DNA of 64,000 nt from an uncultured Schlesneria sp. (GCA_903871875.1 CAIQIR010000142.1:1-64000), one strand, 5' to 3'; positions 4,784 to 62,044 are shown, counted from the stretch's first letter. Program-made: numbers and translations. Notes: generated by a model from the sequence alone, not told the origin.

Positions 4784-6781
4784 ATGTTCGAAAGCGACCG
4801 ACTGCTCCTGTCCGCTCTCATTCTCGCCTCGATCAGTGGCATACCGGGTCTGTTTTTCAATCGTCGTTCTCTGGTGGCTCCCTGGATTGCCGCCATGTTG
4901 ATGGTCACGAGCGGAACCGTGGGCTTGATCGGCGCGGTGCAGTGTGCGGCCCAGTGTGCGAGTGGTTCGGACGTGATGCTGGTCGAATATCCCTTGCCAC
5001 TTCCCGATGCGAGTTTTGCGCTGTCCGTCGATCCCCTGTCCGCCTTTTTTCTCGCAGCGATTTTTCTGGTTTCGACCTTGGGGTCGCTGTATGGACTGGA
5101 GTATTGGAAGCCGACCGAGCATCCCGATAATGCCCGCAAGCTACGGCTGTTTTATGGACTGTTGACTGCGTGTCTGGCGATCGTTGTCCTGGCCAAAAAC
5201 TCGGTCACGTTTTTATTCGGGTGGGAAGGCATGGCAGTTTCCGCCTTCTTCCTCGTGGCGACGGAAGATGATCGCAACGATGTCCGCGACGCGGGGTGGA
5301 TGTACCTGGCGGCCAGCCACGCGGGAACGCTTGCTCTCTTTACCATGTTTGCCCTGATGTATGGTGCGACAGGTCACTTTGATTTTCTCCCATTGACGTC
5401 AGACCAGATTTCTCCCGCTTTCGCTTCGACATTGTTCTTACTGGCACTGGGCGGATTTGGTTTGAAGGCGGGTTTGATGCCACTGCATTTCTGGCTGCCC
5501 GGCGCCCATGCGATGGCACCCAGTCATGTGTCGGCCATCATGTCGGGCGTGTTGATCAAAATGGGAATTTACGGTCTGGTGCGGATGACGGGGCTACTAC
5601 CCGATCCCCCGTTGTGGTGGGGCAGTCTGGTGCTCGCACTGGGGACGGTGTCCGCAGTCTTTGGGATGGTGTTGGCACTGAGTCAGCATGATTTGAAGCG
5701 ATTACTGGCCTATTCGAGCATTGAAAATATCGGCATCGTGGCGATCGGTCTGGGGCTGGCCTTACTGGGACGTTCGCTGCACAACCCGGTGTGGGTGATC
5801 CTCGGGCTGTCCGGTGCGTTGCTGCATGTCTGGAATCATTGCCTGTTCAAGTCGCTGCTATTTCTCGCCGCTGGCACCGTGATCCATGCGACCCATACCA
5901 GAAAAATCGATGAATTGGGGGGCATGGCCAAGCCGATGCCTTGGACGGCGGCGGCCTTCCTGGTCGGAGCCTCGTCCGCTTGCGGTCTGCCTCCCTTCAA
6001 TGGATTCGTCAGCGAATTCCTGATCTATCTGGGTCTGTTCCACACGCTGGGTTTGCCGGGTGAACCGGCTTTGCCGGCGGCGGCGTTTGCCATTCCCGCG
6101 TTGGCACTGTCGGGTGCGGCGGCGATCGCCTGTTTTGTCAAAGCTTATGGCATCGTGTTTCTGGGTGTACCTCGCAAGCCGCTGGCCCATCGACCGCACG
6201 ATCCTCACTGGCCCATGCGATTGCCACTGGTTGTCCTGTCGGTAATCGCCATCAGCCTGGGGATTCTGACGGCGAGTGTCGCCCCTCGTCTGAACGGTAT
6301 CTGTGCCAAATGGTCAGGTCTGTCTTGGGATGCGTCGATCGCGGCTTCGACGCTTGGTCCGCTGGTGCCACTCGGTTGGGCGTTGATCGGATTACTGGGG
6401 TCGCTGTTGTTTGTCTTCTGCTGGCTGCGCTGGAAGATTAGTACTCATCCCTATGCTGAACACGACACTTGGGGCTGTGGGTATCTCGCCCCCACGCCGC
6501 GTCTTCAATACACCGGCACCTCGCTCACTCAGTTTCTCGTCAGTCTATTTGGCTGGTCGATCCAACCGGTGGAAATTCGTCCTCGGATTCGGGAACTGTT
6601 TCCCGTCCAGGCCGCCTATTGGAGCGAGGTGCCGGAAATCGTGCTGGACCGAGTCGTCTCGCCGGTGTTTGATGCGCTGGCTCGTCGGCTGTTGTGGTTT
6701 CGTCTGATACAGCAGGGCAGCGTCCAGATCTACCTGCTGTATATCGTCGCCATGTTGGTCGTGCTGTTCACTGTGTTTTAA
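4784..6781 (+). CDS. hyfB: Proton-translocating antiporter-like subunit, HyfB/NuoL family (Ehr complex)
   Basis: A polytopic inner-membrane protein of 665 residues from the Mrp/NuoL-type antiporter family, expected to form one of the proton channels of a complex I-like machine. Recognisable elements are the F-G-W-E-G-M-A helix with its key glutamate (about residue 147), the L-P-G-A-H-A-M-A-P-S-H-V-S-A helix with lysine-containing neighbours, and the S-Q-H-D-L-K-R-L-L-A-Y-S-S segment. The C-terminal soluble tail with C-G-Y resembles that of HyfB/HycC. ATG at 4784 follows GGAG by seven bases. First gene of an operon with hyfC, hyfE, hyfF, hyfG and the fused ferredoxin/hyfI gene. Confidence 0.88.
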   Translation: MFESDRLLLSALILASISGIPGLFFNRRSLVAPWIAAMLMVTSGTVGLIGAVQCAAQCASGSDVMLVEYPLPLPDASFALSVDPLSAFFLAAIFLVSTLGSLYGLEYWKPTEHPDNARKLRLFYGLLTACLAIVVLAKNSVTFLFGWEGMAVSAFFLVATEDDRNDVRDAGWMYLAASHAGTLALFTMFALMYGATGHFDFLPLTSDQISPAFASTLFLLALGGFGLKAGLMPLHFWLPGAHAMAPSHVSAIMSGVLIKMGIYGLVRMTGLLPDPPLWWGSLVLALGTVSAVFGMVLALSQHDLKRLLAYSSIENIGIVAIGLGLALLGRSLHNPVWVILGLSGALLHVWNHCLFKSLLFLAAGTVIHATHTRKIDELGGMAKPMPWTAAAFLVGASSACGLPPFNGFVSEFLIYLGLFHTLGLPGEPALPAAAFAIPALALSGAAAIACFVKAYGIVFLGVPRKPLAHRPHDPHWPMRLPLVVLSVIAISLGILTASVAPRLNGICAKWSGLSWDASIAASTLGPLVPLGWALIGLLGSLLFVFCWLRWKISTHPYAEHDTWGCGYLAPTPRLQYTGTSLTQFLVSLFGWSIQPVEIRPRIRELFPVQAAYWSEVPEIVLDRVVSPVFDALARRLLWFRLIQQGSVQIYLLYIVAMLVVLFTVF

Positions 6782-6810
6782 TGCCGCCATCCCGGTGAGG
6801 AGTCCAAGCC

Positions 6811-7725
6811 GTGTGGAGTCTCGTCATTCAATTACTGGTATTGTTGGTTTTTCCTCCCCTGCTGGTGGGGTTGATCAACTGCACCAAAGCCGTCTTTGCG
6901 GGCCGGCAAGGCCCCCCGCTGCTGCAGCCGTACTACGAGCTGTGGCGGCTATTGCATAAAGGCACGGTCCAAAGCACCACGACGACCTGGTTGTTTCGCG
7001 CGGGTCCAGTGGTGGCGCTCGTGACCACCAGTCTGGCCGGCCTGATCATCCCGCTGGTCCAACCGGAAGTCTATGTGTCGTTTCCCGGGGACATCATCCT
7101 GTTTGTCTACTTGCTGGCGCTGGGGCGGTTTGCGCTGGTGTTGTCCTCGCTGGATACCGGCTCGCCCTTTGAAGGCATGGGTGTGGCGCGTGAGGTCACG
7201 TTCGCCTGTCTGGCCGAACCGGCGATGTTCATGGGCCTCTTGGCACTTGTGAAGGTTTCTCAATCGCTGGAGATGGTGGACCTGTTGACGGGGAAGCACG
7301 CCGCGACATGGACGGTCAACGGTGCTCCACTCCTGATGATCATTTCCAGCTGGTTTCTCTTGATGCTGGCCGACAGTTGCCGCATTCCCTTTGACGATCC
7401 GAACACGCACCTGGAACTGACGATGGTCCATGAAGTGATCATCCTCGACCATAGCGGTCCGATGCTGGCGATGCTGCACGTCGCGGCGGCCCAAAAGTTA
7501 TTTATCCCTGCCGCGATGCTGGCCCGCCTGGCGATTACTCGCGATCTGGGCGGCGGCTGGATTGAAGGTCTGGTCTTTCTCGCCGTGGTGTTAGCCGTGG
7601 CGGTCCTGGTGGGAATTGTCGAGTCGGTGCTGGCCCGGTTGCGGATGCCGGTGGTGCCACGCGTCTTGACGGCAGCGGGCGTGATTGCGGCGTTCGGTCT
7701 GATTCTGCAGGTGACACTCCCATGA
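6811..7725 (+). CDS. hyfC: NuoH-like membrane subunit, HyfC family (Ehr complex)
   Basis: A 304-residue membrane protein homologous to NuoH/HycD, the subunit that anchors the hydrophilic arm to the membrane arm and forms the quinone-site/E-channel region in complex I. The typical early G-R-Q-G-P-P-L-L-Q-P-Y-Y-E-L motif, the S-P-F-E-G-M-G-V-A-R-E loop and the D-S-C-R-I-P-F-D-D-P-N-T-H-L-E-L-T-M-V-H-E helix are all present. The start is GTG at 6811, preceded by GAGGAG about nine bases upstream. The stop overlaps the next start (ATGA at 7722), indicating translational coupling. Confidence 0.9.
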   Translation: MWSLVIQLLVLLVFPPLLVGLINCTKAVFAGRQGPPLLQPYYELWRLLHKGTVQSTTTTWLFRAGPVVALVTTSLAGLIIPLVQPEVYVSFPGDIILFVYLLALGRFALVLSSLDTGSPFEGMGVAREVTFACLAEPAMFMGLLALVKVSQSLEMVDLLTGKHAATWTVNGAPLLMIISSWFLLMLADSCRIPFDDPNTHLELTMVHEVIILDHSGPMLAMLHVAAAQKLFIPAAMLARLAITRDLGGGWIEGLVFLAVVLAVAVLVGIVESVLARLRMPVVPRVLTAAGVIAAFGLILQVTLP

Positions 7726-8390
7726 ATCTTTCATTGATCGATCCTTTTCTGGTCGTCTTGCTGATGCTGAATTTCATTCAGTTGGGCGTCGGACGATTAC
7801 CCACCATCATTATGATGGTCGCCTTGCAGGGGGTGATCCTGGGCGTGATTTTTCCGTTTACGCACCATGATGCTTCGGCGGGATGGGAAGGAGTGATCAG
7901 CATCCGGTTGCTCGCTCTGGCCGCGGCCATGATTGTCATGAAGGGGTGGCTGATGCCCCGGATGCTTTATTATGCTTTCAAAGAATCTCAGATGCGGGGG
8001 CAGATCGACCCCTACCTGGGTCTGACGGCGTCGCTGCTACTGGGAGCGCTCGGCACCGGTGTGATGATGGCCTTCTCGTCCCGTCTGCCGCTGCGTGAAG
8101 AACACGCCAGCCACCTGCTGGTTCCCGCGGCGCTCTCGACCGTTTTTACAGGACTGTTGATTCTGACGACGCGCCGCGAACCGTTGACGCAGGTCGCGGG
8201 CTATCTGGTTTTGGAAAACGGCATTGTGATCTTCGGCCTGCTGCTGGTCGAGGCGATGCCGTTTCTGGTGGAAGTCGGTGTACTGCTGGATGTCTTCGTG
8301 GGTGTGTTCGTGATGGGCATCATCCTGCAACAGGTCGATCGTCATCTCCCTTCGCCTGGTTCCGATCACCTCCGTACGCTCAAGGAGTGA
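7722..8390 (+). CDS. hyfE: NuoK-like membrane subunit, HyfE family (Ehr complex)
   Basis: A 222-residue, almost entirely hydrophobic protein with about seven predicted helices, resembling hydrogenase-4 component E, whose C-terminal half corresponds to NuoK/MrpC (the G-Y-L-V-L-E-N-G-I block with its buried glutamate is visible around residue 165). It overlaps hyfC by four bases and is followed three bases later by hyfF. HyfD, a second antiporter-like subunit in E. coli hydrogenase-4, is absent from this operon. Confidence 0.85.
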   Translation: MNLSLIDPFLVVLLMLNFIQLGVGRLPTIIMMVALQGVILGVIFPFTHHDASAGWEGVISIRLLALAAAMIVMKGWLMPRMLYYAFKESQMRGQIDPYLGLTASLLLGALGTGVMMAFSSRLPLREEHASHLLVPAALSTVFTGLLILTTRREPLTQVAGYLVLENGIVIFGLLLVEAMPFLVEVGVLLDVFVGVFVMGIILQQVDRHLPSPGSDHLRTLKE

Positions 8391-8393
8391 TGG

Positions 8394-9833
8394 ATGGCCG
8401 AACTTTTGATATTGGTGCCCTGGCTTTTCGGCGGATGGGCCTTTGCCATCTCGTCCAACAAATGGCGACCGTGGGTCCTGCCATTGGGTGGGCTGGCACA
8501 TTCGGTGCTCACGGTGATGGCACTGCAAGAGCCGGGTTTAACAGGCCTCAACGGCTGGTTAAGCCTCGATCCGCTGGGCAAGCTGGTGTTGGGTCTGATC
8601 AGTGTGATGTTTCTGTTATGTGCCTGTTATGCGCCGGGTTACCTCGCGCAGCGGCCTGAACGAAACAATCGCGTGATGTGTTCCTGCCTGATGTTGTCGC
8701 TGGGCATGATGACGCTGATCATCTTGTCGCACCATCTGGGGCTGATGTGGGTCGCGATGGAAGCCACGACCCTGGTCAGCGTGCCGGGGCTGTATTTCAA
8801 TCACAATTCGCGCTCGCTGGAAGCGACGTGGAAGTATCTGTTGATCTGCTCGGTCGGCATCGCGCTGGCGCTGTTGGGATCATTGTTCTTCGCCTATTCT
8901 GCCGTGCATGCCGGTTTGGAATCGACGTTGATGTTTGACGACCTGCTGAAAGAAGCGCCGCAACTGTCCGTTCCCTGGCTGCACACGGCGTTCGTTCTCT
9001 TGCTCGTCGGCTACGGCACCAAGATGGGATTGGCGCCGATGCATACCTGGAAGCCCGATGCTTACGGAGAAGCTCCGGGAATGATCGGGGCTCTGTTGGC
9101 CGGGTGCATGACCAATTGCGCCTTCCTGTCCATCTTACGGTTTGTGCTGATTGCGCGGGCGGCCGGTCAACGCGAATTTGCCGACCGTATCCTGATCTTT
9201 GTGGGTCTATTCTCCATGGCCGTGGGCACGGTCTTCATGGTTCGCCAGCGAGACTTCAAGCGCATGCTGGGCTATTCGAGCGTCGAGCATATGGGGATTC
9301 TGGTGCTGGGGATCGGGATCGGCGGTGGTGCCTGCTGGGCCGCTTTGCTGCACATGATCAACAACGGTCTGACCAAAGGGGTGCTATTTTTGTCCGCCGG
9401 CAACATTCATCGCGCTTACGCGACGAAGCAAACGGCGGACGTCCGTGGCGTCATTCGCCGGCTTCCCGTCTCGGGGGTGATGTTTCTGTTGGGCTTTCTC
9501 GCGATCACCGGTTCACCACCATTTGCGCCATTCATCAGTGAATTCGGCCTGTTGTCGTCCGCGTTTCGTCAAGGGCATTATTGGGCTGGGGGATTGTTTG
9601 CCAGCATGCTGCTGATCGTGTTCTTCGGGTACGGAGCGACCGTCACCACGATGGTTTTCGGAGCCCCCAGTCCCGCCGCCAAGTCCACGACTTTTCAAGA
9701 TTCGTTCGCGACGTGCTGGCCGATCGTCGGCTTTGGGCTGCTTGTGCTGATGCTGGGTTTGTATCTGCCTCCGTTCATGGCGGAACTTTTACGTGACGCG
9801 GTTTCCTATGTGGAAATGAAATCACCTGGTTGA
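8394..9833 (+). CDS. hyfF: Antiporter-like subunit, HyfF/NuoN family (Ehr complex)
   Basis: A second proton-translocating antiporter-type membrane protein, 479 residues. Seen are W-V-A-M-E-A-T-T-L (channel glutamate), G-Y-G-T-K-M-G-L-A-P-M-H-T-W-K-P-D-A-Y-G-E-A-P (broken helix TM7 with lysine) and R-D-F-K-R-M-L-G-Y-S-S-V-E-H. The order and spacing match HyfF rather than the longer HyfB. A ribosome-binding AAGGAG precedes ATG 8394. With hyfB it gives the complex two antiporter-like modules. Confidence 0.88.
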   Translation: MAELLILVPWLFGGWAFAISSNKWRPWVLPLGGLAHSVLTVMALQEPGLTGLNGWLSLDPLGKLVLGLISVMFLLCACYAPGYLAQRPERNNRVMCSCLMLSLGMMTLIILSHHLGLMWVAMEATTLVSVPGLYFNHNSRSLEATWKYLLICSVGIALALLGSLFFAYSAVHAGLESTLMFDDLLKEAPQLSVPWLHTAFVLLLVGYGTKMGLAPMHTWKPDAYGEAPGMIGALLAGCMTNCAFLSILRFVLIARAAGQREFADRILIFVGLFSMAVGTVFMVRQRDFKRMLGYSSVEHMGILVLGIGIGGGACWAALLHMINNGLTKGVLFLSAGNIHRAYATKQTADVRGVIRRLPVSGVMFLLGFLAITGSPPFAPFISEFGLLSSAFRQGHYWAGGLFASMLLIVFFGYGATVTTMVFGAPSPAAKSTTFQDSFATCWPIVGFGLLVLMLGLYLPPFMAELLRDAVSYVEMKSPG

Positions 9834-9886
9834 AAATCAAGATTTGGACATGGTTCCCCCGTCCGGCGAATATGAGGTCAGTCATC

Positions 9887-11419
9887 ATGTCGAGCGACGT
9901 CAGCCAACTTCCGCGACTCAAGAACGGCGAAGCCTGCTCGTTGGCGGCCGTGCCGCGATTGAGTTTTGACGACTTTCGGAAATGCATTGTCGCTCAGGCC
10001 GTCGGCCCCGTTCGTCTCGCGTCATTCTTCGGTCAACCTCGCGATGACGGCGGCGTGCGGCTGTATGCCGTGCTGGCCGACAATAACGAGGGTGTGCTGC
10101 TGCCGGTGTCGACGGACCTGTTCGACGACAAATATCCCTCGTTAACGACCGATTGCCCACAGGCTCACAACTTTGAACGGGAACTGGCCGAGCAATGGGG
10201 GCTTGTGCCAGAGGGGCACCCCTGGCTGAAGCCGCTGCGCTATCATCCTTCGTATCGTCACGGCCATGATGCCTGGGGGCGACTACCTGCCGACCGGATT
10301 CTTCCTGCGGTGACCGACTACTTCCGTGTCTCGGGGGCCGAGATTCATGAAGTGGCCGTCGGTCCTGTGCATGCCGGCGTGATCGAACCAGGCAGCTTTC
10401 GATTTCAATGTCACGGCGAGCATGTCTTTCATCTGGAAGTCCAATTGGGCTATCAGCACCGCGGTGTGGAACGGGCATTGATCGGCGGTCCCAACAAACG
10501 CACGCTGCACTACATCGAGACCCTGGCTGGCGATACGTCCATCGGACATGCAACGGCTTATTGCCAGGCCGTTGAAGGACTGGCTGAAGTCACTCCCTCG
10601 CCCCGAGCGCAATCGATTCGTGCGATCGCCCTGGAGCTCGAGCGATTGGCTTGCCATACCGGCGATCTGGGCGCACTGGCCGACGATGTGGGCTTCCTCC
10701 CCACGGCCAACTTTTGCGGACGATTACGCGGCGATTTTCTGAACGCGACGGGAACGATCTGCGGCAATCGATTTGGCCGCAGTCTGGTCCGACCGGGCGG
10801 TGTCACATTTGATATCACTGCCGAGATGGCGACCACGCTGACCACGCGATTGAAAGCGGCGCTGCGCGACGTGGGGGGGGCGGCTCAACTGTTATGGGAT
10901 AGCCTGTCGGTACGAGCTCGATTTGAAAACACGGGTGCGGTCAGTTCCGAAGATGCCGAGGCGCTGGGAATCGTGGGTGTGGCCTTGCGAGCGACGGGAA
11001 TCGAGCGCGACGTCCGACAGAATTTTCCAACGGGCGCCTACAGTCGGGCGGCGATGCCGGTGGCCACCTGGCCGACGGGCGATGTGTTTGCGCGAGCATA
11101 CGTCCGCTGGCTGGAAATCGAAAACTCGGGCGAGTTCGTGCTCGATCAATTGCACACTCTGCCCTCCGGATCCTGTCGCACCGAGGTCGGTTCGCTGGCC
11201 GCCGATTCATTCGTTGCGTCGTTGGCGGAAGGCTGGCGAGGGCCGGTATGCCATGTTGCCATCACAGACGCGGCGGGGAAATTTGCCCGCTACAAAGTTG
11301 TCGACCCCTCTTTTCAGAACTGGACCGGCCTGATGCTGGCTCTGCGTGACCAGCAGATTTCCGATTTCCCTTTGTGTAACAAAAGTTTCAACCTTTCTTA
11401 TTGCGGTCACGATCTCTGA
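9887..11419 (+). CDS. hyfG: NuoCD/HyfG-like large subunit lacking NiFe ligands (Ehr complex)
   Basis: The N-terminal ~165 residues correspond to the NuoC/30-kDa domain (H-N-F-E-R-E-L-A-E-Q-W-G) and the remainder to the NuoD/HycE 49-kDa domain. In true group 4 [NiFe] hydrogenases two CxxC pairs hold the metal, within R-V-C-G-I-C-G and near the C-terminal D-P-C-x-x-C. Here the first is replaced by E-T-L-A-G-D-T-S-I-G-H-A-T and the C-terminal region reads D-F-P-L-C-N-K-S-F-N-L-S-Y-C, so neither pair exists. This is diagnostic of energy-converting hydrogenase-related (Ehr) complexes, whose redox reaction is unknown. ATG 9887 was chosen because GAGG lies ten bases upstream; a TTG at 9830 would overlap hyfF. 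Confidence 0.88.
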   Translation: MSSDVSQLPRLKNGEACSLAAVPRLSFDDFRKCIVAQAVGPVRLASFFGQPRDDGGVRLYAVLADNNEGVLLPVSTDLFDDKYPSLTTDCPQAHNFERELAEQWGLVPEGHPWLKPLRYHPSYRHGHDAWGRLPADRILPAVTDYFRVSGAEIHEVAVGPVHAGVIEPGSFRFQCHGEHVFHLEVQLGYQHRGVERALIGGPNKRTLHYIETLAGDTSIGHATAYCQAVEGLAEVTPSPRAQSIRAIALELERLACHTGDLGALADDVGFLPTANFCGRLRGDFLNATGTICGNRFGRSLVRPGGVTFDITAEMATTLTTRLKAALRDVGGAAQLLWDSLSVRARFENTGAVSSEDAEALGIVGVALRATGIERDVRQNFPTGAYSRAAMPVATWPTGDVFARAYVRWLEIENSGEFVLDQLHTLPSGSCRTEVGSLAADSFVASLAEGWRGPVCHVAITDAAGKFARYKVVDPSFQNWTGLMLALRDQQISDFPLCNKSFNLSYCGHDL

Positions 11420-11463
11420 TTTGACGATCGTCAAAGATCACCACTGCTGATGGATGCCTACCT

Positions 11464-12264
11464 ATGTTCCGAGTCATTGGCGAACGGTTGCGACAGGGAT
11501 ATCGAACTTCCGCCTTTCCAGACGCCGATGCACCGCCCCGTCCAGAGCGGTTTCGCGGACTGCCCATCCTCGATCAGACGAAGTGTCCGTCGAACTGTCA
11601 CAGTTGCATTGACGCCTGTCCGACAACGGCACTGGCGCAAACCAATGACCAGTTACGTTTGGATATGGGGCGATGTCTCTTTTGCACCGACTGCACCGAA
11701 GCTTGCCCGGAAGGCGCGGTGAGTTTCTCTGATGACTACAGCCTGTCGACGCGGACTCGTGAAGGCCTGGTGATCGGAGACCAGCCCCTGCAACGGGCGA
11801 AGGAGCTCGAACAACGACTGCTGAAAATCTTTGGGCGGTCGCTTAAGCTGCGGCAAGTCAGCGCCGGCGGGTGCAATGCCTGTGAAGCCGATGTCAACGT
11901 GCTCAACACGGTCGTCTTTGACCTCAGTCGGTTTGGAATTCAGTTCGTCGCGTCGCCCCGCCATGCCGACGGCCTGTTGATCACCGGTCCGGTGACAGAG
12001 AACATGCGCGAAGCCCTGCTCAAAACCTATGAGGCGGTGCCAGAGCCCAAGCTGGTCATTGCCGTGGGGGCCTGTGCGATTTCTGGGGGGCCGTACATTG
12101 ACCACCCCGAAGCCCACAATGGTGCCGATTCGGTGATCCCCGTCGACCTGTATGTACCGGGTTGTCCTCCCAGTCCCTGGACGATCCTCGATGGGATCCT
12201 GCGGTTACTGGGCCGTATCGAAGACAGAATCCCCGCGCCGTCGACGTCTTCCTCGCAGCCGTAA
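11464..12264 (+). CDS. hyfI: Fused 2x[4Fe-4S] ferredoxin (HyfH-like) and NuoB-like (HyfI) subunit (Ehr complex)
   Basis: Residues ~38-90 are an 8Fe ferredoxin with two clusters (CPSNCHSCIDACP and CLFCTDCTEACP); residues ~115-255 are a NuoB/HyfI domain retaining the N2-cluster cysteines in G-G-C-N-A-C-E-A-D, G-A-C-A-I-S-G-G-P and P-G-C-P-P-S-P. In E. coli hydrogenase-4 these are separate proteins (HyfH and HyfI). The iron-sulfur relay is therefore intact even though the NiFe site in HyfG is not, so electrons can be passed to something other than a NiFe centre, presumably between ferredoxin-like donors and a quinone or other acceptor (inference). Last gene of the operon. Confidence 0.88.
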   Translation: MFRVIGERLRQGYRTSAFPDADAPPRPERFRGLPILDQTKCPSNCHSCIDACPTTALAQTNDQLRLDMGRCLFCTDCTEACPEGAVSFSDDYSLSTRTREGLVIGDQPLQRAKELEQRLLKIFGRSLKLRQVSAGGCNACEADVNVLNTVVFDLSRFGIQFVASPRHADGLLITGPVTENMREALLKTYEAVPEPKLVIAVGACAISGGPYIDHPEAHNGADSVIPVDLYVPGCPPSPWTILDGILRLLGRIEDRIPAPSTSSSQP

Positions 12265-12601
12265 TGCGTTCTTTTCCGGCCAGTTCGAATTCCTGGTCAT
12301 TGCAACGGGCTGGGTTTGTCGTCACGGGGCAATCCAAGGTTTGTTCTGTGTTCGGTCGCAATCATTGGTGCGGCCGTACAAACCGCTCTTGGCTGCAGCC
12401 GCAGGCCAAAAGACGCCAGGCGACCGGCGAAAAATACTTCTCGTCGGTCAAGCGTTGGCATATAACGGCACCACAGACCGTTGTTATCACCAAGTCGTTT
12501 CGCGGTGTGCCCAGCGCGAGGTTTGAGTTCGTTTGGATCTCGATCGGCGATTCCAAGCATTCGTCAAACCGACTTTGTGCATCACCTTTGAGGATTTGAA
12601 A
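12265..12601. other. Gap between the Ehr operon and the ATPase gene
   Basis: No coding frame with a plausible start or family was found, and no strong hairpin plus T tract. It probably holds the ATPase promoter; AGGA at about 12590 serves as the ribosome-binding site for the ATG at 12602. Confidence 0.4.
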
Positions 12602-15025
12602 ATGCAAGACTACGAAAAGCTGGGCGTGTTTTATCTCGGCAAAACGTACGACATGGCTGCGCGAGAAATCCAGGATGATCTGCTGCTGTACGATGCCAAA
12701 GATCTGACGACCCATGCCGTCTGCGTCGGGATGACAGGCAGCGGCAAAACGGGGTTGTGTCTGTCATTGTTGGAAGAAGCGGCCATCGATGGAATTCCCT
12801 CGATCTGTATCGATCCCAAAGGTGATCTCGGTAACCTGCTACTGGCCTTTCCGAATTTGTTGCCAGAAGACTTTCGTCCTTGGATTGATCCCGCCGATGC
12901 CACTCGGGCCGGTCTTTCCCCGGAGGATTACTCGGCGAAAATGGCCAAGGTTTGGAAGGATGGTTTGGCCGCGTGGGGGCAGCCACAAGACCGGATCAAA
13001 TGTTATCGCGATGCGGTCGATATTTCGATTTATACGCCCGCCAGCAACGCGGGACTTCCGTTGACGGTATTGAAATCATTTTCGGTTCCCAGCCAGGCAA
13101 TTCTCGGCAACAACGAATCGATGCGAGAACGAGTCGCGTCGGCCGCTTCGGGATTGCTGGCGCTGCTCGGCATCGATGCGGATCCGCTGCAAAGCAAGGA
13201 GCATATCCTGCTCTCGACGATCCTTGACCGATCCTGGCGAGCTGGAAAAGATGTCGATCTGGGAAGCCTGATCAGGCTGATTCAGAAGCCCAACTTCGAC
13301 AAAGTCGGCGTGATGGACCTCGAAAGTTTCTATCCGTCCAAAGAGCGATTCGCGTTGGCGATGACGTTAAACAACCTGATCGCGTCGCCTGGTTTTCAAG
13401 CCTGGATGGAAGGAGAACCGCTCGACATCCAGCGATTGCTGTACACGCCCGAAGGCAAGCCACGGTTGACCATCATTTCGATCGCCCACCTCAGTGACAG
13501 CGAACGGATGTTCTTCGTCACGATTCTTCTCAACGAGATGGTCGCGTGGATGCGCTCGCAATCAGGGACCTCCAGCCTGCGTGCGATCCTCTATATGGAC
13601 GAGATTTTTGGCTACTTTCCGCCGACCGCCAATCCCCCGTCCAAGACACCGATGTTGACGCTGTTGAAGCAGGCTCGCGCGTTTGGGCTGGGCGTGGTGC
13701 TTGCCACACAGAACCCGGTCGATCTCGACTATAAAGGTCTCTCCAATGCCGGAACGTGGTTTCTTGGTCGATTGCAGACTGAACGCGATAAGGCTCGAGT
13801 GCTGGAAGGTCTCGAAGGGGCTTCGGCCGCGGCCGGGGCGAAGTTCGATCGTGGTCAAATGGAAAAAATCCTGGCCGGATTGGGCAACCGAGTGTTTCTG
13901 ATGAACAATGTTCATGAAGATCGCCCCGTCGTATTCCAAAGCCGCTGGGCGTTGTCATTCCTGCGAGGCCCCGTCAATCGCGACGATATCGCCAAATTGA
14001 TGGCCCCCAAGAAAGCTCTTTTGCCGGCGTCATCGGGTCCAGTCACGACAACGATCAGCGATCAGGCCGCGGGGGGGATGCATCCTGTGCTGCCTCCAGG
14101 GATCAACGAAACCGTTGTCGTCCGCCAGACCAGTCTCTTGGGCGACGTCAAGCTGATGTACCGCCCGGGACTATTGGCCTCGACCCGCATTCGGTTCGTG
14201 CAATCCGCGGCCGGCGTCGACTCCCTGCAGGATATGACGGTGTTTCTGCCCGCGGTCGACAAGGTCTCGCCCACGATGTTCGACGAAGCCGAGATCAATA
14301 CGAATTCGGAACCGGAACAGCAGGAACATGCCGACGCGGAAGGCGGGTTCGCTTCGCTACCCGCCGAACTCAGTCGAGCCAAGACCTACACGGAACTGCA
14401 AGCCGCCTTGAAGGATCATGTTTACAAGACCCAGAAACTGACACTCTGGAAATGTGCCGAACTGAAAGAGACTTCGAAACTGGGCGAAACGGAAGGCGAC
14501 TTTCGGGTGCGTATCGCTCATGTGCTGAAGGAACAACGCGATCAAGCGGTGGAAAAACTGCGTGCGAAGTACGGTCCTAAATTGACGATGATTCAAGAAC
14601 AACTTCGCAAGGCGATTCAGAAGGTCGAAAAGGAAAAGCTGCAGTCACAAAACCAGACGTTTCAAGTCATGGCCACCGTGGGCACGTCCATCCTGGGCGC
14701 CGTGTTTGGTCGCAAACTGGGATCAGCCTCGAACATGGGCCATATCGCTTCAGGGGTTCGTGCGGCCAACAAATTAGGAGCGGAACATCAGGACGTGGCG
14801 ATGGCCGAGGAATCGGTCGAGGCGATTCAGGGCCGCTATGACGCTCTTAATAAACAGTTTTCCGATGAAGCGACGGCCCTGCTGGATGGGGCCATCGCCG
14901 AGAATCTGAAATTGGACGAAATCAGTATCGCGCCGAAGAAGACTGACGTCAGTATCAACAAATTCGTGCTCTGTTGGACGCCCTGGATTGTCGACGCCCA
15001 AGGCAAAGCCGCACAGGCCTGGTGA
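12602..15025 (+). CDS. P-loop ATPase of the HerA/DUF87 type with C-terminal coiled coil
   Basis: An 807-residue cytoplasmic protein. G-M-T-G-S-G-K-T at residues 43-50 is the Walker A motif, I-P-S-I-C-I-D-P-K-G-D-L is a DUF87/HerA-like strand, and L-Y-M-D-E-I-F-G-Y-F-P-P is Walker B; L-A-T-Q-N-P-V-D-L-D supplies sensor 1. This order is that of FtsK/HerA-superfamily motor ATPases such as DUF853-like proteins. Residues ~600-730 are charged and heptad-like (coiled coil), with an E-K-L-R-A-K-Y-G-P-K core, followed by a glycine-rich hydrophobic patch. The start at 12602 is preferred over 12533, which lacks a ribosome site. The gene ends 18 bases from the convergent glycosyltransferase. Substrate unknown; no nuclease partner is adjacent. 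Confidence 0.75.
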   Translation: MQDYEKLGVFYLGKTYDMAAREIQDDLLLYDAKDLTTHAVCVGMTGSGKTGLCLSLLEEAAIDGIPSICIDPKGDLGNLLLAFPNLLPEDFRPWIDPADATRAGLSPEDYSAKMAKVWKDGLAAWGQPQDRIKCYRDAVDISIYTPASNAGLPLTVLKSFSVPSQAILGNNESMRERVASAASGLLALLGIDADPLQSKEHILLSTILDRSWRAGKDVDLGSLIRLIQKPNFDKVGVMDLESFYPSKERFALAMTLNNLIASPGFQAWMEGEPLDIQRLLYTPEGKPRLTIISIAHLSDSERMFFVTILLNEMVAWMRSQSGTSSLRAILYMDEIFGYFPPTANPPSKTPMLTLLKQARAFGLGVVLATQNPVDLDYKGLSNAGTWFLGRLQTERDKARVLEGLEGASAAAGAKFDRGQMEKILAGLGNRVFLMNNVHEDRPVVFQSRWALSFLRGPVNRDDIAKLMAPKKALLPASSGPVTTTISDQAAGGMHPVLPPGINETVVVRQTSLLGDVKLMYRPGLLASTRIRFVQSAAGVDSLQDMTVFLPAVDKVSPTMFDEAEINTNSEPEQQEHADAEGGFASLPAELSRAKTYTELQAALKDHVYKTQKLTLWKCAELKETSKLGETEGDFRVRIAHVLKEQRDQAVEKLRAKYGPKLTMIQEQLRKAIQKVEKEKLQSQNQTFQVMATVGTSILGAVFGRKLGSASNMGHIASGVRAANKLGAEHQDVAMAEESVEAIQGRYDALNKQFSDEATALLDGAIAENLKLDEISIAPKKTDVSINKFVLCWTPWIVDAQGKAAQAW

Positions 15026-59409: not shown

Positions 59410-61491
59410 TCAATTTTTTGCTTTGGCCGATTTGTGGTTGTTCGAATCGGCTGTGTTGCCGGAGTTGAATTCGCTGACAATCAGCTGAAGGTCGGCGGCC
59501 ATGCGTGCGAGTTCTTTTGCGGCGTGATTGCTGTTATTGGCGCCCTCGGTTGTGCTTTTGGCCGCCTCGGCAACAGACATGATATTTTGAGCGATCTCGG
59601 ACGTACCTCGCGACGACTCGGCCACATTGCGGCTGATCTCGTTGGTCGTTGCGGTCTGCTCTTCGACCGCGCTGGCAATGGTATTTGAGATATCGTTAAT
59701 TTGGGCGATGACTATTCCAATCTCACCAATCGCTTGGATCGCCCCTTTGGTGTCTCGCTGAATCGCCTCGATTTTGTGACTGATATCTTCGGTCGCCTTC
59801 GCGGTTTCCTTGGCGAGTTCTTTGACTTCATTGGCAACCACGGCAAATCCTTTGCCAGCCTCACCCGCTCGCGCTGCCTCAATTGTGGCATTCAACGCCA
59901 ACAGATTCGTCTGTTGAGCGATCGATGTGATGACCTTGATCACCTTCCCGATTTCGGCACTCGACTCACCCAGTTTGCCGATCGTCGAATTCGTGGTCTC
60001 CGCCGCTTTGACGGCCGACATTGCGACCTTGGCGGCATCGGTTGCATTCTTGGCGATCTCCCTGATGCTGGCGCTCATTTCCTCGATGCCTGTGGCGACC
60101 GTTTGCGTGTTCTTACTGACCTGTTCGGACGCCGCCGATACGACCCCCGCTTGAACGGCCGTCTCTTCCGCATTGGCGCTCATTTGAGTGCTGACCGCCG
60201 AGAGTTCTTCCGACGCCGCCGCCATTGCCGTCGAATTTTCGGCGACCTTTTTCAGGACGACTTGCATGTTTGCCGTCAGTTCTTTCTCACGTTTGTCCAG
60301 AGCCAATTTTTGAGTGATGACTTCCCACGTCACCATCGCGCCGAGATAGTTCTTGTCGTCATCGAAGATGGCACTAACGAGCAGGTCGAGTGTTTCGGTG
60401 CCGACCGTAATGTGGGCCTTGCGCGGCAGGTTTGATGGATCCGAGAGCAACCCTCGCTGAAAGGCGGGATTCTTGTGGAAGACGTCAATCTTCTGTCCAA
60501 CGATTTGATCGACCGGAATTGGCAGGTACTGTTGGATGCTCTTCAGCGTCTTGATGGAAGCGGGATTGATATAGCGGATGATCAGGTCGGTGTCGGCGAA
60601 AATGATGTTGCTGGGCGAATTCTCCGACATCGACGCGTAACGCATGTTGACCATCCGTTGCTGCACCCCTCGCGTGACGTCGGTGGCAAACTTGACAACT
60701 TTAAATGGTCGATTATTAAGATCGAAGATGGGGTTATAAGAGGCCTGAATCCAGACTTCTTTGCCGCCCTTGCCAATGCGCTTGTATTCGGCCGCCTGGA
60801 ATTTGCCTTCGCCCAGGTTCTGCCAGAACAGTTTGTAGTCGAGGCTACTGCGATAAGTCGGCTCGACAAACAGACTGTGGTGCTGGCCTTTGATCTCGTC
60901 GAGCGAATAGCCCAGCGTTTTCAGGAAGTTGTCATTGGCGGTAATGATCGTGCCGTCCAGGTTGAATTCGATCATGGCCTGGGCTTTACTAATGGCTGCG
61001 ATTTGACCTTGAAAGTCAGCGTTCTGTAACTTCGTTGCCGTCACATCGGTGGCGAACTTGACGACTTTGAACGGCCGATTGTTGACGTCGAAGATGGGGT
61101 TATAAGTGGCTTGAATCCAGACTTCTTTCCCGCCCTTTCCGATACGCTTGTATTCGGCTGCCTGGAATTTGCCTTCACCCAAGTTCTGCCAGAACAGTTT
61201 GTATTCGGCACTGCTGCGGTATGCGGGCTCGACAAACAGGCTGTGGTGTTGGCCTTTGATCTCGTCGAACGAATAACCCAGCGTCTTCAGGAAGTTGTCG
61301 TTGGCGGTAATGATCGTGCCGTCGAGGTTGAACTCGATGACCGCCTGTGACTTGTTGATCGCCGCGACCTGTCCGGCGTAGTCGGCGAACTGTTGGTCTT
61401 GGATGGCTTTTGTCGCCTGAGTCTCTTTGGCTGATTGACCGTTTTCGATCTGAAAATGAGTCATCCAGCGACGAGGTGCTTGTGCCGGCAT
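59410..61491 (-). CDS. Cytoplasmic methyl-accepting chemotaxis protein with duplicated PAS domains
   Basis: 693 residues from ATG 61491 (GGAG ten bases upstream). No membrane helix, so a soluble receptor. Two almost identical PAS/PAC units (about residues 42-151 and 164-273; both [19 protein letters not shown]) precede a third, divergent PAS-like region ([16 protein letters not shown]). The signalling domain has the hairpin tip [20 protein letters not shown], which binds CheA/CheW. Aerotaxis or redox sensing is typical of such PAS receptors (Aer/BdlA-like), inferred only. cheX follows. Confidence 0.93.
60673..61368. repeat. Tandem duplication of a 330-bp PAS-coding segment
   Basis: Segments 61368-61039 and 61002-60673 (minus strand) encode PAS units that differ at few positions, with a 366-base period. 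Many third positions are also shared, indicating a recent duplication or gene conversion within the receptor gene. Confidence 0.85.
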
Positions 61492-62044
61492 TTCACGAAT
61501 TCTCCGCTGTCGCGCAAGACATGCGCGAGGGTTTGATGCGACATGATCGATGGCTGAAAAGAGCGCCGCCATCAATTGGTGTTAACCACAACTTCGGTGG
61601 GAATGTCTCTGTTGAGTGAGATAAATTCGATTAATAAAATGCTGCAGGGTGTATCGTTGTTGATCGTCGTGTCGTTGCGAAAATGCGAATGTGGTTGCGG
61701 TCAGCGTGGTTCCGTCGAGCGACGATCAGCCATTTTATTAGGGCAAATTTAATTTTGCGTGTTTCACGCACGTCGTGTGGCAATCCACATTGTGCGTCTT
61801 TTTGTGCTGTGGAGATCCGCGTTTGCAATTGGTGATCGTGTGGTGACACACGTCACTTGCGGGCCTGTTTTCAGGGCTCTGCCAGCTGAAAACCATGTCC
61901 ACCGCGAGTGAAGTTTGCGCGACGAGCCATCGCAGAAGCCGCAACCATTCCGGCTGAGCCTGTTTCATTGACGGACGTCGGGTCGTCAATGAACGTTCCT
62001 GATGTGTTCTGTGTTTTTGTACAGGTGTGTCGTTTTGCGAGGTG
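61492..62044. other. Gap between the chemoreceptor and the TlpA-like gene
   Basis: No recognised gene. An A/T-rich patch at 61618-61645 may be the receptor promoter. A frame on the minus strand (61738-62094) overlaps the TlpA-like gene end and shows no family resemblance. Confidence 0.4.

Follow-up and report, generated by a model that had tools for sequence, protein, structure and literature searches.

What does a hydrogenase-4-like operon encode when its large subunit no longer holds nickel and iron, and for what may such a complex be used? The question is raised by positions 4784-12264 of the window, i.e., the whole stretch of 64,000 nucleotides analysed here, where the first-pass annotation had placed an Ehr-type complex. 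Complexes of this kind are widespread and have been on record since 2005, and the window adds a new member to them. Those of Geobacter (GSU0739-45) were reportedly named in 2005 and are said to be covered by Coppi 2005 and Marreiros et al. 2013. No Ehr complex with an assigned reaction was found in the literature searched.

Composition of the operon

The six genes (Table 1) are adjacent, intact, co-directional and tightly packed, in the order HyfB-C-E-F-G followed by HyfH and HyfI fused into one gene. The intergenic gaps are, in order, 29, −4, 3, 53 and 44 bp; an alternative TTG start of the large subunit at 9830 turns the gap of 53 bp into an overlap. The order and motifs of a hydrogenase-4-like complex, first read from the sequence, are confirmed by the NCBIfam and Pfam matches and by the intact ORFs. 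The absence of HyfD from the operon is confirmed as well, and HyfA is also missing. The operon comes without formate dehydrogenase genes, an NADH module or Hyp genes. The Fe-S relay and the antiporter-like subunits are retained, as had been proposed: 12/12 cluster cysteines of EhrS are present in an alignment of 24 relatives (pLDDT of the predicted model, 85), and the Glu/Lys pump residues are in place. A second HyfB-like gene occurs in 15 related loci and is absent from the window. The adjoining genes on its two sides encode a tRNA-dihydrouridine synthase and a HerA-like ATPase.

Table 1. Features of the window, with positions counted from its first nucleotide.
Feature	Coordinates	Strand	Length (aa)	Matches and remarks
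HyfB/EhrA-like antiporter-type subunit (NuoL-M type)	4784..6781	+	665	NCBIfam hydrogenase 4 subunit B, E 3e-170; PF00361; pump residues Glu/Lys/Lys/Glu retained
HyfC/NuoH-like (EhrB) subunit	6811..7725	+	304	PF00146, E 9e-31
HyfE-like (EhrC) subunit	7722..8390	+	222	NCBIfam hydrogenase 4 membrane subunit, E 6e-17
HyfF-like antiporter-type subunit	8394..9833	+	479	NCBIfam hydrogenase 4 subunit F, E 4e-100; pump residues match E. coli HyfF
HyfG/EhrL large subunit (NuoC+NuoD fusion)	9887..11419	+	510	without NiFe ligands and without C-terminal processing tail
EhrS, 2x[4Fe-4S] ferredoxin domain fused to NuoB-like domain	11464..12264	+	266	PF01058, E 3e-29; Fer4
HerA-like ATPase	12533-15025			directly 3' of the operon; weak domain matches (PF05872, PF01935)
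PAS-PAS methyl-accepting chemotaxis-type protein	59410-61575			

The comparison with known systems leads to the following points: (i) E. coli hydrogenase-4 and formate hydrogenlyase-1 and -2 have the order B-C-E-F-G-I and the large-subunit fold in common with the window, which differs by the lack of Ni ligands, processing tail, HyfA, HyfD, formate dehydrogenase and Hyp genes and by the fusion of HyfH to HyfI; (ii) respiratory complex I shares the NuoB, C, D, H, I and L/M/N-type modules and the Fe-S path, but NuoEFG, i.e., the NADH module, is missing from the operon, and the columns of the quinone ligands His and Tyr of NuoD are occupied by Ile166 and Gly215 in EhrL; (iii) DAB and NDH-1MS also have antiporter-like membrane subunits, and the DAB genes of relatives share an apparent operon with ehrLS, but the window operon has no DabA and no extra gene for a Cup subunit with a carbonic anhydrase-like site, the link being genetic only; (iv) Geobacter Ehr has the same subunits and the same loss of both NiFe cysteine pairs and belongs to the same clade, whereas Geobacter loci carry two EhrA-like genes and the window only one, without an upstream HTH-EIIA gene. 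The window thus has the large, small, NuoH-like, HyfE-like and antiporter-like subunits of Ehr, both CxxC pairs being missing.

The former NiFe site

In the alignment with HycE and HyfG of E. coli, the window EhrL has A214, T217, S504 and G507 in the Ni ligand columns, i.e., CGIC has become AGDT and the CYSC of DPCYSC has become SYCG. The loss of both cysteine pairs, on which the first-pass annotation relied, is therefore real, and it is general: a ligand pair is found in 0/116 relatives. Two observations had been named in advance as fatal to the assignment, a CxxC pair elsewhere in the large subunit and a NiFe maturation set tied to the operon. Neither is present: the subunit holds no CxxC pair, and the maturation set of the genome, with two HypD genes, is found on contigs C163 and C10, where it accompanies two ordinary NiFe hydrogenases whose CGIC and DPCxxC motifs are intact. 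HycE and HyfG extend 32 residues past the cleavage site, whereas 115/115 relatives (window apart) stop at the cleavage residue. Both the four cysteine ligands and the maturation tail of group 4 [NiFe] hydrogenases are thus lacking, and with the loss of ligands and tail the maturation route is gone too.

C506 immediately precedes the last ligand column, and C497 lies nine residues ahead of C506; C506 is not universal among relatives. A metal site made of C175 and C506 was considered, both being invariant or nearly so in clade 1; they are absent from the gammaproteobacterial clade 2, so that this site was rejected as a universal catalytic feature. The AlphaFold model of EhrL (pLDDT 85 overall) superposes on HycE of formate hydrogenlyase (7z0s_E) with a TM score of 0.81; residues 152-189 and 491-510 are of low confidence, and no pocket geometry is thus claimed. 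In the comparison with archaeal Mbx/MBS, 6u8y_L is a distant sequence match to the large subunit (E 3e-14).

Relatives and conservation

A first scan, run over named genomes, recovered 56 loci; the gene order is shared by nearly all of them. They are found in Planctomycetota, Verrucomicrobiota, Kiritimatiellota, Lentisphaerota, Acidobacteriota, Myxococcota, Omnitrophota, Elusimicrobiota, Geobacteraceae and others. By similarity search, Ehr is present in 25/397 genomes of the window's class (the window's own included) and in 44/369 gammaproteobacterial genomes, where the matches mostly form a second clade, at 31-38% identity and likewise without ligands. The operon is missing in 14/14 congeners, and it is thus patchy or transferred. 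Two loci show peculiarities: an Anaeromyxobacter small subunit (L039, 4606-5418) lacks several ferredoxin-domain cysteines, and in a Vicinamibacteria MAG (L038, 12413 onwards) what appears to be a complex I operon, with NuoH- and NuoL/M/N-type genes, lies directly 3' of the Ehr operon.

In a quick maximum-likelihood tree, to be read with a long-branch warning, all Ehr rows stand together on one side of a branch (SH-aLRT 99), HycE/HyfG and NuoD remaining outside. The window falls among planctomycete rows, and two loci of Geobacter, the genus in which Ehr was named (PMC7894505), are inside the Ehr clade; these are L031 and L025, not GSU0739-45. The Ehr-type assignment is supported by this shared clade and by the missing ligand pairs. 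At the level of sequence the operon thus encodes an Ehr complex, which belongs to a branch of the complex I family that resembles hydrogenase-4 but is devoid of NiFe.

Over 116 sequences from at least nine phyla, conservation is highest in the former metal pocket: 36/69 columns of the pocket are at least 95% conserved vs. 42/334 elsewhere (both clades, P 6e-12). Since the first scan relied on fixed peptide patterns, this conservation was rechecked by similarity searches. Two signatures are universal, [ASCV]GD[STAC] where hydrogenases have CGIC, and NKS...Y.G.DL where they have DPCxxC (the residue of G507 is Ala in two sequences). At two near-invariant positions the window EhrL departs from the His of nearly all relatives, with Ser in one case (H170S) and Gln in the other (H477Q). 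Judged from the Fe-S cysteines, the pump residues and the strong constraint on the pocket, the operon is not decayed.

Gene neighbourhood

Three Pfam tallies, covering 100, 120 and 126 neighbouring genes, show no conserved redox partner near Ehr loci; the survey for a recurring partner suggested at first pass thus gave none, and what recurs is a regulator, plus inorganic-carbon genes in Planctomycetota. The regulator, a fusion of HTH_17 and PTS EIIA_2, lies upstream in 27/40 loci with readable upstream sequence, in several phyla. The window locus has no such gene upstream, and distant homologues occur elsewhere in its genome. Genes were called by a simple codon-usage script, so that absences are less certain than presences. 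Other neighbours are seen locally. In a Geobacter MAG (L031, 11585-14297) ehrL is separated from ehrS by genes for an IclR-like regulator and a molybdopterin oxidoreductase; in Kiritimatiellota (L017, 12507-13178; L028, 5632-6474) the region downstream of the Ehr operon encodes a second EIIA-like protein, in which a stretch with CxxC resembles a zinc ribbon.

Inorganic-carbon genes lie within about 10 kb of Ehr in 13/24 Ehr-bearing genomes of the window's class. They belong to four unrelated families: DabA (G029, G299, G353, G397), SulP (G029, G299, G353, G042, G055, G194, G379, G168, G127), SbtA (G055, G082) and beta-carbonic anhydrase (G174, G104), the last retaining the CxDxR and HxxC zinc motifs. 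In a fourteenth genome, G221, SulP and DabA are at 9-17 kb. G120 was rejected as SulP-linked, its candidate being a fragment without Pfam match and its only SulP lying on another contig. With 16 DabA and 42 SulP copies over the Ehr-bearing genomes of the class, DabA is found within 5 kb of Ehr 4 times vs. 0.043 expected (P 1e-7), and SulP within 10 kb 9 times vs. 0.18 expected (P 4e-13), both P values treating genomes as independent. The linkage of Ehr to inorganic-carbon genes in class relatives is thus non-random.

On the tree, the linkage label changes at least 6 times among the scored planctomycete rows and 7 times against all other rows (5 of the 7 forced by starred branches), G104, whose carbonic anhydrase was identified later, being scored as unlinked; linkage is therefore not a single inherited event. 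The arrangements also vary between loci. At L128, L113 and L116, EIIA-HTH, ehrL, ehrS, dabA, dabB, a further nuoL-like gene and sulP form one co-directional apparent operon, and two SulP proteins of this series end in a C-terminal P-II domain. At L113 and L116 ehrLS adjoins dabAB in one direction, the membrane-arm genes being a separate divergent unit.

No inorganic-carbon gene lies near the window locus; the genome's two DAB operons are on another contig. Both are complete DabA-DabB-NuoL-like operons, separated by about 12 kb on contig C59 of G000 (L104, 4002-9810; L105, 2633-8519), and each adjoins a two-component system; a split third DabA is near a SulP gene on C94 (L126). Outside the class, SulP, DabA, SbtA and carbonic anhydrase are not among the commonest neighbour families of about 40 same-clade loci of other phyla, SulP is next door in only 2/40 gammaproteobacterial loci, and SulP is missing altogether from 6/10 Ehr genomes sampled in other phyla. 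The carbon link is thus not the universal function of Ehr.

Matching observations exist in the literature and are left unjoined there: (i) in A. caldus, hyfBCEFG adjoins a beta-carbonic anhydrase gene and belongs to the core genome with carbon-fixation genes (PMC3826726); (ii) the Acidithiobacillus large subunits carry the motifs SGD[TS] and NLSYSGHDL, as in Ehr (PMC6002666); (iii) Wood-Ljungdahl organisms recurrently have a carbonic anhydrase beside genes labelled 'formate hydrogenlyase' (PMC10880623). No paper linking Ehr to carbon uptake was found in the literature searched, the coverage of which is incomplete.

Proposed function and alternatives

The preferred reading, to which a probability of about 0.55 is given, is that Ehr is a ferredoxin-fed ion pump which in Planctomycetota has been recruited to power the uptake of CO2 or bicarbonate. 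Low-potential electrons, most likely from ferredoxin, would be taken up by EhrS at its ferredoxin domain and handed on to the NuoB-type cluster. An acceptor, most likely quinone or another small molecule, would be reduced in the remodelled EhrL pocket; the absence of the His and Tyr quinone ligands of complex I counts against this reading. The energy would be transmitted through the NuoH- and HyfE-like subunits to the two antiporter-type subunits, which would export H+ or Na+. Redox-driven charge translocation is what the retained Fe-S and pump residues suggest; the donor, acceptor, direction and pumped ion are those that we infer. In Planctomycetota the gradient would feed DAB, SulP and SbtA. 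DAB is driven by PMF, and bicarbonate is transported by BicA-type SulP and, in a Na+-dependent manner, by SbtA (PMC13144422); an adjacent Ehr pump may thus readily be read as the power supply of all three. The window organism too may use Ehr for carbon uptake, its two distant DAB operons making such a role possible.

A general pump between ferredoxin and quinone (or another acceptor), serving redox balance at low oxygen, is possible but clearly less probable; the planctomycete linkage would then reflect shared regulation, through HTH-EIIA and two-component systems, and not a shared task. Most other phyla indeed have the operon without carbon genes, the recurrence of an HTH-EIIA gene suggests control by the phosphotransfer state, and Geobacter Ehr subunits rise on formate (PMC7894505). 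However, four unrelated one-function families, in several arrangements and on several branches, exceed what shared regulation leads one to expect. Slightly more tentative still is the extension of the recruited-pump reading in which planctomycete Ehr would be the engine of electron-driven inorganic carbon uptake with DAB, SulP or SbtA, i.e., a non-photosynthetic counterpart of the cyanobacterial NDH-1MS from a different complex I branch.

It is unlikely that a formate dehydrogenase feeds the Fe-S relay. Such an FDH-Ehr complex was proposed for Riflemargulisbacteria (PMC6349859), fdh genes are in the A. thiooxidans cluster (PMC6002666), and the molybdopterin oxidoreductase of L031 would suit it; but the window operon encodes no molybdopterin enzyme, and none figures among the families most often found as neighbours in about 100 loci. 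A little more doubtful yet is a direct action on inorganic carbon, e.g., electron-driven CO2 hydration with EhrLS physically coupled to DabAB. NDH-1MS does couple ferredoxin oxidation to CO2 hydration, but DAB2 needs no electron transfer to work (PMC13144422), a CupA-like subunit was not seen and DabA is missing at most Ehr loci; the layout of L113 and L116, with ehrLS beside dabAB and apart from the membrane arm, speaks in its favour. Finally, a defunct hydrogenase under drift, the view taken for Geobacter in a recent statement that its Ehr complex is nonfunctional (PMC13194489), would account for the lost ligands and the two deviating residues of the window copy, but the six intact reading frames and the pocket conservation contradict both this reading and that statement, and its probability appears negligible.

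Significance

The conservation data argue against a nonfunctional Ehr. The linkage to carbon genes gives the complex a job that can be tested, by growth and bicarbonate accumulation at low CO2, and it singles out for this purpose the planctomycetes in which ehrLS adjoins dabAB.
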